Below, one piece after another: positions 7,913 to 18,214 of a DNA stretch of 20,044 nt. The stretch comes from a virus, in IMG/VR virus record IMGVR_UViG_3300025671_000711, positions 1 to 20,044 of that record; one strand, given 5' to 3'. Positions within the stretch are counted from its first letter, which is position 1; each line of letters opens with the position of its first letter. A model generated the notes under the pieces. That model searched no databases and was not told the origin of the DNA. It saw only the letters and a list, made by a program, of their open reading frames with translations. A program made the position numbers and the translations under genes.

Positions 7913-8140
7913 TTAAGAAAGAGCTGCGCCGACTGCGGTTACCCAAGCTGAACCTGTGCTAACAACCAAGCAATATTCGTTATTACCAACACCGTTATCA
8001 CTGATAAGACGAACCTGACCAGCATTACCAGCAGCGGCTGCAGGTAACTCAGAAGTAGTAATAGCTGTCAATTTAAGGAAAGCAGCGGTAGTAAAACCGT
8101 TGGTGGACACGACAGGTCCGGAAAAAGTGGTAGTAGCCAT
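7913..8140 (-). CDS. Small highly expressed virion-type protein, 75 aa
   Basis: MATTTFSGPVVSTNGFTT opens a short Ala/Thr/Ser/Gly-rich protein (SELPAAAAGNAGQVRLISDN...YCLVVSTGSAWVTAV). The [L/A]-x-x-x-x-AG-x-x-G-x-x-x-x-x-[ST]-[DN] plus GSAW pattern is typical of small domains in phage head fibres and tail proteins. AAGGAG lies five bases before the ATG. It is the first gene after a consensus sigma70 promoter and a roughly 88-base folded leader, so it is probably made in large amounts. A decoration or fibre-tip protein would fit; this is inferred. Confidence 0.7.
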   Translation of the reverse strand: MATTTFSGPVVSTNGFTTAAFLKLTAITTSELPAAAAGNAGQVRLISDNGVGNNEYCLVVSTGSAWVTAVGAALS

Positions 8141-8145
8141 CTTAG

Positions 8146-8226
8146 CTCCTTACATGCAAGTGGATGGAGGTATCGCTGTCTGCATGTCGTCAGCCGGGAC
8201 TGTCAGCGATACCGGATGTCCCCGGA
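8146..8226 (-). promoter_or_regulatory. Folded 5' leader with possible pseudoknot next to the ribosome site
   Basis: On the minus strand a perfect 10-bp helix joins GGTATCGCTG (8213-8204) to CAGCGATACC (8178-8169) across a 25-base loop. Inside that loop ACATGCA (8187-8181) is complementary to TGCATGT (8158-8152), which lies directly before AAGGAG (8151-8146). Pairing both would make an H-type pseudoknot touching the ribosome site. A further complement, CCGGGGAC (8225-8218) with GTCCCGG (8200-8194, one bulge), would cross the first helix. Seen: the complementarity. Inferred: control of translation or mRNA stability of the 75-aa gene. Confidence 0.5.
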
Positions 8227-8320: not shown

Positions 8321-9232
8321 TTAACTGGATCCGGGAGATCCAAAGATCCCGAGGGGATCTGAAACGCCGAAGCTATAACGCTCGCGAGCCTTGTAACGCA
8401 CGTTACCCGTATCGAAGTCACCGTCCATAGAATTAGACAGCGGGGTACGGACAAAATGCTTCAGACCGTTCGGGACATCGGTGGTCAGGAACCACGCGTT
8501 GTCATCCGTGAGGAAGTGGTTAACTTTATAACCACCCGGAACCGATCCGTTGCTCACAATAGCGTTAACGTCGTTATCAGCCGTACCTACGCGGAACTCA
8601 GTCTCAAGCAGGCGGGTTGCTACGAACATTAAAGCAGGCGGGATGATGAGCTTACGCGGCTTAGCAGCAATAAGCAGACCGCGCTCATCGGTCCACCCGG
8701 CAATCTGAATGACTGCGGCTTCCAAAGAAGTCTCATTCAAATCTGCGCCCGTCGTAGGACGGTTGCTGTTCGTACCACCAGAAACAAGCGGGTGGTCGGT
8801 AGCGCAGAGCACCTTACCGTCACCATAGGTCGGGCCACCCGTGAACGCGTTGTTCAGGATATAGGCAGCTTTAACCTGCTTGGTGTATGCCATGCCGCGA
8901 GCAAGGGCTTTCGTATAACGCGACGAAAGGGAATCGTACAGGTTGTCCTCCATTGCCTCTTCGGTAATCGAGAATCCCATAGCGATGGTTTCGTGCGTAT
9001 AACGTGCAGTCCATGCTTCCTGTGCGTTGTCATATGCAATGGCAGAACCTTCATCCTTAACCGGAGCGGCGCCAAAGCCAGACAACTTGGTTTCTTCCTC
9101 GAAAGAACGGTCGGAACTCTCAGTCTCGTAGATTTCCTTATGTTCTTCCCCATACTTAGAATACTCCAACCCAAACAGAGCATTAAGCCCCGGGAGGAGT
9201 TCTTTGAGCAGTTGTGAACGTGAAATAGCCAT
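8321..9232 (-). CDS. Major capsid protein (HK97-fold, Mu gpT-like)
   Basis: 303 aa, normal size for a capsid subunit without a long prodomain. The start MAISRSQLLKELLPGLNALF, then EETKLSGFGAAPVKDEGSAI, TARYTHETIAMGFSITEEAM and DNLYDSLSSRYTKALARGM form the N-arm and spine-helix region. The CATDHPLVSGGTNSN block and PRKLIIPPALMFVATRLL match the P-domain pattern of Mu gpT-like capsid proteins and their marine relatives. FLTTDVPNGLKHFVRTPL and RYKARERYSFGVSDPLGIFG close the subunit. AAGGGAG lies upstream. The gene order scaffold, 152-aa protein, 196-aa protein, capsid and the strong terminator just after it all support the call. It forms the icosahedral head around the scaffold. Confidence 0.88.
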   Translation of the reverse strand: MAISRSQLLKELLPGLNALFGLEYSKYGEEHKEIYETESSDRSFEEETKLSGFGAAPVKDEGSAIAYDNAQEAWTARYTHETIAMGFSITEEAMEDNLYDSLSSRYTKALARGMAYTKQVKAAYILNNAFTGGPTYGDGKVLCATDHPLVSGGTNSNRPTTGADLNETSLEAAVIQIAGWTDERGLLIAAKPRKLIIPPALMFVATRLLETEFRVGTADNDVNAIVSNGSVPGGYKVNHFLTDDNAWFLTTDVPNGLKHFVRTPLSNSMDGDFDTGNVRYKARERYSFGVSDPLGIFGSPGSS

Positions 9233-11264: not shown

Positions 11265-11642
11265 TTAACCTCTATAAATACCACGCGGGTCTTCGACCAC
11301 GCCTTCTACAGAATCATCATTAATCAAACGAAAAGATTTACCGTGGATGTTCAGGCGCGTGCCCGCGTGAGGACGGACTAATACAAAGTCGCCTTCTTTG
11401 CAGTACGCACCGGATGGGAATCTATCGGGGTCTTTAAAGCAGTCCGGTCCTAGTTTGACAACAAACAAAACCGTCGCTAAAAGCTCTTCGTTCTTCTTGG
11501 TAGAATCAGCCTTTAAGATTCCGCTATCGTATGTCGATTCTATATCTGGGATAGCACAGAGAATTCTGTACCCAGAGGGTTCAGGTAGTTGTTTAGCTTT
11601 ATTCTCTTCGCTTTCTACACTCTTGTCGTGTTCTGCGTCCAT
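11265..11642 (-). CDS. GroES-like co-chaperonin
   Basis: 125 aa, with the chaperonin-10 layout after a charged 20-residue lead. Residues 23-30 (SGYRILCA) match the first strand. YDSGILKADSTKKNEELLATVLFVVKLGPD (residues 38-67) matches the mobile loop plus the GxVLAVGxG strand. GDFVLVRPHAGTRLNIHGKS (residues 84-103) matches the GDxVxF and core-barrel strands, and RLINDDSVEGVVE matches the final DxLLxxED[D/S]ILAIVE strand. Phage co-chaperonins such as T4 gp31 cap the host GroEL so that it can fold the capsid protein. The place beside portal, scaffold and capsid genes fits this use. The family match is by eye, and sequence identity to bacterial GroES is low. Confidence 0.75.
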   Translation of the reverse strand: MDAEHDKSVESEENKAKQLPEPSGYRILCAIPDIESTYDSGILKADSTKKNEELLATVLFVVKLGPDCFKDPDRFPSGAYCKEGDFVLVRPHAGTRLNIHGKSFRLINDDSVEGVVEDPRGIYRG

Positions 11643-17700: not shown

Positions 17701-18114
17701 ATGGCCGCCGTTAACGAAGACACCGAAATCACGATCCCGTTGCGCAACCTCATCGCTATTGTTACTGCCATTGCTGTAGCCAGTTGGACCTACGCTGGTA
17801 TTAATGAACGCCTGAATATGATCGAACACACTAACGCGCAGAACAAAATTGTTATGGACCTCAATACAGAGTTCCGCACGAAATGGCCGCGTGGGGAGAT
17901 GGGGAGCCTTCCTGCAGACTCTCGGCAAGACATGCTTATCGAAAGCCTAGAAAGAAGATTAAGTGAACTACACCATGTGGACAATGAAGTAGATGCTCTC
18001 AAAATCCGAGTAGGTGCTCTAGAAGAATACGCCAATTCTCCCAACCCGGATGTCTCTATCCTCACACATAAAATAGAATTCCTACATGAGCAGATCGGCG
18101 CCTTGAAGCCTTGA
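17701..18114 (+). CDS. Membrane-anchored coiled-coil protein, 137 aa
   Basis: Residues 1-15 are polar, 16-33 (NLIAIVTAIAVASWTYAG) form one membrane helix, and 75-135 form a coiled coil (IESLERRLSELHHVDNEVDA, IRVGALEEY). A short basic, Pro-containing stretch lies at 59-72 (RTKWPRGEMGSLPA). This is the layout of an inner-membrane spanin or an anchor for another protein. The minus-strand 97-aa protein at 4756 has the same plan without sharing clear sequence. The ribosome site AAAGGAGG five bases before the ATG is nearly perfect. The last seven codons, with the stop, are the first unit of a 24-bp tandem repeat that continues past the gene. It faces the holin-like gene, so a lysis role is possible but unproven. 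Confidence 0.75.
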   Translation: MAAVNEDTEITIPLRNLIAIVTAIAVASWTYAGINERLNMIEHTNAQNKIVMDLNTEFRTKWPRGEMGSLPADSRQDMLIESLERRLSELHHVDNEVDALKIRVGALEEYANSPNPDVSILTHKIEFLHEQIGALKP

Positions 18115-18214
18115 CAACTCGGCGCCTTGAAGTCTTAACAACTCGGCGCCTTGAAGCCTTGACAACTCGGCGCCTTGAAGCCTTGACAACTCGGCGCCTT
18201 GAAGCCTTGACAAT
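18095..18214 (+). repeat. 24-bp tandem repeat, five copies, including the end of the upstream gene
   Basis: Units at 18095, 18119, 18143, 18167 and 18191. The unit is TCGGCGCCTTGAAGCCTTGA plus CAAC. Copy 2 differs at two bases and copy 5 at the last base. The period is eight codons, and each unit carries the stop codon of the 137-aa gene in frame (TGA, or TAA in copy 2). Every unit holds the palindrome GGCGCC, and four hold TTGACA. No spacers separate units, so it is not a CRISPR. It resembles iterons. Confidence 0.95.

Follow-up and report, generated by a model that had tools for sequence, protein, structure and literature searches.

A multiply knotted mRNA leader at the ribosome site of a probable capsid cement-protein gene in aquatic phages

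The preQ1-II and SAM-II riboswitches are H-type pseudoknots whose 3' strand holds the ribosome site, with an inserted hairpin in preQ1-II; both sit at metabolic genes and have a ligand pocket. A further RNA, Mu-gpT-DE, is said to stem from a 2017 paper in NAR. Rfam holds it as RF03012, a 53-nt model of two nested helices that ends at the AUG and is typed as sRNA, and the authors of CaCoFold count it among the families whose stored structure has no covarying pairs (PMC7657543). For viruses, a 2010 review considered the pseudoknot of T4 gene 32 to be possibly the only one in translational autoregulation (PMC3014915). The leader reported here is a multiply knotted RNA of ~80 nt, not in Rfam 15, and hundreds of contigs from aquatic phages carry it ahead of genes of the capsid-cement type.

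The leader was analysed in a virus record of 20,044 bases (the window), and all its coordinates refer to the minus strand. It lies between the gene of the major capsid protein (MCP, 8321..9232), which matches Pfam PF25209 (2.4e-13), PF10124 Mu-like gpT (2e-7) and the PHROG family phrog_371, and a gene of 75 aa (MATTTFSGPV..., 7913..8140), both on the minus strand. The terminator scan places an intrinsic terminator of the upstream MCP transcript at 8294-8271, with a 10-bp stem and then a T run. The strong promoter that had been claimed just before the leader is indeed near consensus, having a -35 box TTGACA (8263-8258, 6 of 6 positions) and a -10 box TATACA (8240-8235) with a spacer of 17 nt, and the transcript start is predicted at about 8228. 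At the other end, the Shine-Dalgarno sequence (SD) AAGGAG (8151-8146) is followed 5 nt later by the ATG at 8140. For the 75-aa protein no Pfam or PHROG match of its own was found, and a PDB search with the MCP and this protein found no relatives. By its position it is probably a capsid cement or decoration protein, because it is encoded by the first gene after the MCP and the gene in the same position of phage DSL-LC04 is annotated as cement protein. Elsewhere in the window, a protein of 125 aa (11265-11642, minus strand) is encoded at the position of the GroES co-chaperonin in annotated relatives, and is probably a phage GroES since the relatives carry groES a few genes before the capsid gene. 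Two tandem repeats were also seen. A 24-nt unit, TCGGCGCCTTGAAGCCTTGACAAC, is present in five head-to-tail copies at 18095-18214 on the plus strand, at and just past the end of the ORF 17701-18114, and a 66-nt unit is repeated in tandem at the contig end (1-330), within an ORF with repeated VTETKAVPVAVTVPTFPVADSP.

Read from 5' to 3', the elements of the leader follow in the order A, B5', C5', A', C3', D, B3', E5', D' and E3', the last coinciding with the SD. Helix B is formed by GGTATCGCTG (8213-8204) and CAGCGATACC (8178-8169), and 17 nt separate its end from the SD. In helix A, the 5' strand CCGGGG (8225-8220), located at the extreme 5' end of the mRNA, pairs with UCCCGG (8199-8194), the loop of hairpin C, whose arms are CAG (8202-8200) and CTG (8193-8191). 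The pseudoknot helix of D, ACATGC (8187-8182), and D', GCATGT (8157-8152), has its 3' strand in the loop of stem E, of which the 5' arm is CTT (8160-8158) and the 3' arm AAG (8151-8149) is the first half of the SD. The two pseudoknots therefore have helix B in common, and a 3-bp stem carries each of the partner loops. The original prediction held that a perfect 10-bp helix was present, that its loop was complementary by seven bases to the segment touching AAGGAG, and that a third pairing crossed the first helix. All three are exact in the sequence, the second as ACATGCA (8187-8181) with TGCATGT (8158-8152), which abuts AAGGAG; the seventh of these pairs (8181-8158) is in competition with the inner pair of E, and the D-D' helix found family-wide has 6 bp. 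Stems C and E, of 3 bp each, were not part of that prediction and were added from the relatives. The strand CCGG (A2, 8215-8212) is an alternative local partner of the helix A 5' strand, and overlaps the first two pairs of B.

When 5000 dinucleotide shuffles of the window leader were examined, a perfect 10-bp stem appeared in 14 of them, and a 10-bp stem together with a crossing 7-nt match in none. The MFE fold of the leader is unremarkable (z from -0.01 to -0.74), and these weak plain scores are what might suggest a chance fold or an artefact at the codon or DNA level. MFE folding cannot see pseudoknots, and the evidence for the knot is therefore comparative. At least 160 loci were collected by scanning with the 75-aa protein and the capsid protein, and by eye the same architecture, with many letters changed, was found between the two genes at most capsid loci. 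A covariance model of 32 leaders, restricted to helices B, C and E, was then built and finds at most one copy per locus; with a context-free pattern scan added, the homologous leaders number at least 184, one per locus.

Overall, 97.6% of the pair cells do pair in 98 distinct sequences, and two-sided changes are present at 20 of the 22 pairs, with a covariation score of 0.447 against 0.172 ± 0.006 for shuffles and at most 0.113 for slid structures. All ten pairs of helix B have two-sided changes, with 96.6% paired, as do all six pairs of D-D' (98% paired), which had been left out of the covariance model. In the relatives the 5' arm of hairpin C is 100% paired and its 3' arm covaries, the 5' arm of stem E is 97.8% paired, and RAGG stands at the position of its 3' arm in 155 of 167 distinct leaders. 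Helix A was counted separately, setting 16 classes of loop sequence (CCCGG, CCCGA, CCTAG, CCGAG, TCGGG, CCAAG and others) against their own 5' leaders. The mean helix with the own leader is 5.76, compared with 4.36 ± 0.23 when the classes are permuted (0 of 20000), and the predicted crossing pairing is thereby borne out. The covariation of A2 is weaker (own 3.7 vs 3.23 ± 0.15, 2 of 5000) and A2 is missing in the CTAGG class; possibly it is a mutually exclusive second partner of the A 5' strand, that is, an alternative state or switch. Contrasts that take the tree into account, run on an MCP tree of 290 rows, show both sides of the middle pair of C changing in 13 of 13 independent contrasts (p=2.4e-4), while the closing pair of E has about 10 covarying contrasts and 0 contrary (p about 0.002), and the D pair 59/91 has 6 and 0 (p=0.03). 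These contrasts presume that leader and MCP share one history, and exchange of cassettes would leave fewer independent events. The original prediction had proposed a covariation search in homologues, and compensatory changes are abundant there. The helices, their crossing and their maintenance in evolution are thus observed, and since the relatives keep the knot while its letters change, the knot is real rather than a chance fold; the massive covariation and the absence of the double feature from the shuffles leave chance or artefact with practically no standing.

The setting of the leader is likewise constant. The MCP lies upstream in 175 of 175 loci that have an MCP match on the fetched DNA, with a gap within ~150 nt in 150 of them and of 0.3-1.2 kb in 25, in several of which the insert is a homing-endonuclease-like gene; after the insert the leader remains with the downstream gene. 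GIY-YIG-like homing endonuclease genes are repeatedly inserted right after the capsid gene (L012, L020, L029, L050, L074, L077); these inserts are upstream of the leader which, where found, stays with the downstream gene. The start codon of the next gene comes 0-12 nt past the model end, mostly 5-6. With the MCP upstream and the start of the next gene downstream in the relatives, the cis position before a virion gene that had been supposed is borne out. Its fixed place between the capsid gene and the start of the next gene is a direct observation, and among the matches listed it is found at this one genomic place only. This bears on a metabolite or ion riboswitch, an explanation which the compact multi-helix knot with conserved junction bases at the ribosome site, resembling preQ1-II and SAM-II, could support. 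Among the matches listed, however, metabolic genes are never downstream of the leader, and the search of Rfam 15 with the leader gave no match up to E=10, neither to a riboswitch nor to a self-cleaving ribozyme family. The statement that it belongs to no known riboswitch class hence stands, and we regard a riboswitch as very unlikely.

The downstream genes mostly have a TTFSGPV-like N-terminal start, and proteins with GPWLLGT and QSIWRSGG are also encoded under the same RNA. The leader might be a feedback operator, in which a phage-encoded protein such as capsid or scaffold stabilises the knot, as with gp32 or S15. Knots at the ribosome site are known protein operators in T4 gene 32 (PMC3014915) and rpsO (PMC4137082), and the conserved unpaired bases of the leader (A between B and C, AC after C, and AGA after D) exceed the needs of pairing. 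However, there are no binding data, and the RNA core stays the same although the products of the first gene belong to different families, so that a feedback operator would need another protein; we consider it possible but doubtful.

At other loci of the same capsid family, a shorter leader (type 2) occupies the same place, including in the sequenced phages CRP-901 and CRP-902 (L404, L408). Rfam assigns it to Mu-gpT-DE in 11 of 16 loci tested, the members having 52-73 bits. Our analysis shows that Mu-gpT-DE also knots, with its loop pairing to the start codon and codon 2 (L404:3198-3259, L408, L281-L400): the D segments GCC, ACCC, TCCC and TTGCC are complementary to the start regions ATGGCT, ATGGGT, ATGGGA and ATGGCAA, respectively, and the rarer combinations TCCC/GGGA and TTGCC/GGCAA are separate support for the pairing. 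The counts were made on 122 leaders with a sequence anchor, because the MAFFT alignment shifts the D segment in leaders with ACCC. The second base of codon 2 is paired in 121 of the 122, against a mean of 70 and a maximum of 87 after shuffling. Mapped on the MCP tree, 17 changes fall on the leader base and as many on the codon base, and 10 of 10 independent supported contrasts go in the same direction, although leader and gene may travel as a cassette and the true number of events would then be lower. There is also a third subtype, in which D (CCTCA) pairs with the SD (TGAGG) itself, found in 17 distinct leaders plus L049, L050 and L077. Along the MCP tree, one leader type gives way to another at this site 23 times, and at least 9 of these exchanges are on supported branches. 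In every type one arm of the knot is at the ribosome site: it abuts the SD, where stem E extends to its edge or inside it, covers the SD, or pairs with the start codon.

These features bear on two further explanations. One is a trans-acting small RNA or a put-like transcription antiterminator, which could be suspected from the typing of Mu-gpT-DE as sRNA in Rfam and from the position of the leader at the very start of the transcript. Against it, the terminator scan gave none between the leader and the ATG, so the leader is not free-standing; the RNA runs into the SD, and the partner of the type 2 loop is coding sequence. It appears far too improbable to be preferred. The other is a stabiliser or insulator at the mRNA 5' end, of the ompA or T7 gene 10 type, without any switch: the 5' end would be hidden from RppH and RNase E, the SD shielded from other pairings, and the output constantly high. 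A -10-like box is present in 158 relatives, and its spacing to helix A has a sharp maximum at 9 nt (about 87 at 9 nt, 122 within 7-10 nt), which is also the value in the window, so that helix A should start ~2-3 nt into the transcript and leave few free 5' bases. In addition, the promoter is strong, cement proteins are needed in hundreds of copies and can equal the capsid protein in number (540 copies each in phage GP4, PMC9698820), and the leader stays while the downstream protein families vary. A stabiliser, however, needs neither a second arm that tracks the SD or AUG nor a constraint on codon 2 as in type 2. It remains a serious competitor, to which we give somewhat less than even weight.

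The distribution of the leader in isolates is patchy. BLAST of the leader against phage records gave only 19-nt chance matches in Cronobacter and Pectobacterium phages, and the isolates carrying it were located through an MCP protein search instead. Leaders of the window kind (type 1) are carried by Pelagibacter phage HTVC023P (L409, 31 bits) and, as judged by eye, by DSL-LC04 (L402). Neither type 1 nor type 2 was found, by eye and with model R1, in HTVC027P, 023Pt_psg01, QDWS535 (Alcaligenes) and Pag-Yong1, or in Caulobacter phage RW; because the first four of these have a similar MCP, the leader is not indispensable. The genome collection gave four true matches and one chance match, and as all four are in metagenome-assembled bins there is no prophage or host link. 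One locus (L131:3861-4000) has a different leader before the same type of gene, a CTCG-GACA-CGAG hairpin directly before AGGAG.

Taken together, we hold it likely, in the absence of expression, probing or transcript data, that the leader is a 5'-terminal cis-acting knot which gates the access of ribosomes to the probable cement-protein gene. A separate transcript would start after the capsid gene with the leader at its 5' end. Its first bases (A) are predicted to dock into the loop of the inner hairpin C, across helix B, while the other end of the loop region (D) would pair with D' in the loop of E, the stem that takes up the first half of the SD with its 3' arm. From these two contacts it follows that the folded knot would unite the 5' end and the ribosome site in one compact body. 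We infer that this body limits 30S binding, and that translation of the cement protein depends on how often the knot opens, which would set or regulate the cement-protein output relative to the capsid protein; both the 30S occlusion and the regulation of cement-protein dose are inferences. Decay of the mRNA is probably slowed as well, since its 5' end is inside the fold. Not every leader would occlude the SD fully, because in the GTG/CAC variants (L015, L027, L030, L402) stem E is just upstream of the SD and not within it. Mu-gpT-DE may be read as an abridged form of this device, in which the outer stem holds the SD and the pseudoknot helix the start codon. The original prediction spoke of a translational switch or a stabilising knot. 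As far as comparative data can tell, a function at the ribosome site is favoured and protection of the 5' end is possible, whereas the choice between a regulated switch and a fixed governor or stabiliser is undecided. It is rather unlikely, though conceivable, that type 1, the SD-pairing subtype and Mu-gpT-DE make up a superclass acting as a capsid-stoichiometry switch through a phage- or assembly-dependent factor. As soon as capsid protein or heads have appeared, such a factor would open or close the site at which ribosomes bind the cement-gene mRNA. The switch, in contrast to T4 gene 32, would be a conserved feature of phages infecting Pelagibacter, Roseobacter and freshwater bacteria, the sequestered part moving from the SD to the start codon as the design shifts. 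The tuning of decoration protein against capsid protein in tailed phages becomes testable in the cultured phages HTVC023P and CRP-901/902.

Among the described systems, preQ1-II and SAM-II are alike in the H-type knot at the ribosome site and unlike in that the leader lacks an Rfam match. The operators of S15 (rpsO) and related proteins include the SD in pseudoknot or kissing structures and gate initiation (PMC4137082), but they belong to host ribosomal protein genes, have other helices, and have a known protein ligand. The T4 gene 32 pseudoknot is also in a phage mRNA leader and tied to translation. It is, however, placed 67 nt ahead of the start codon and serves to nucleate the binding of gp32 on an A+U-rich stretch, while the knots described here are joined directly to the SD or AUG with no protein known, and the variation of downstream protein families under the same RNA counts against an autogenous operator of this sort. 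If the proposed function is right, the leaders would give a widespread example of viral translational-control pseudoknots, for which T4 gene 32 was perhaps the only case.

The closest likeness is to Mu-gpT-DE. Membership of the window leader in this family, an idea arising from the gpT-like capsid gene, was rejected for want of an Rfam match: the window has no RF03012 match, whether at the gathering score (49 bits) or with E allowed up to 10; 17 type 1 loci likewise have none at gathering, and two divergent relatives have none with E up to 10. The covariance models of types 1 and 2 searched against each other gave no significant match, and weak R2 matches near some type 1 leaders (E=0.23 at L409) are within the range of its chance matches; common descent hence rests on inspection only, of the junction order and the site. 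The outer stem of Mu-gpT-DE has 4-5 bp (CCUG/CAGG) and contains the SD, whereas B of the window has 10 bp and lies before it; its D' is the AUG with codon 2, whereas that of the window precedes the SD inside stem E; and the window leader has the additional helix A at the 5' end. Both directly follow a Mu-gpT-like capsid gene and precede the ribosome site of the next gene, both show by eye the junction order stem, A, hairpin, AC, D, GA, stem, and in both a D-D' helix crosses the outer stem, which for RF03012 was found in this analysis and is absent from Rfam. Because site, topology and junction order are shared, the window leader can be said to work in the way proposed here for Mu-gpT-DE, to which it is probably related, descent not being proven. 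The orphan Mu-gpT-DE, filed as sRNA, in turn finds its explanation as a shorter variant of this knot at the ribosome site; its pairing includes coding sequence and shows covariation with the second codon. The window leader is a new RNA family that belongs to the ribosome-site pseudoknots; its place is unusual, and so is the richness of its knot.
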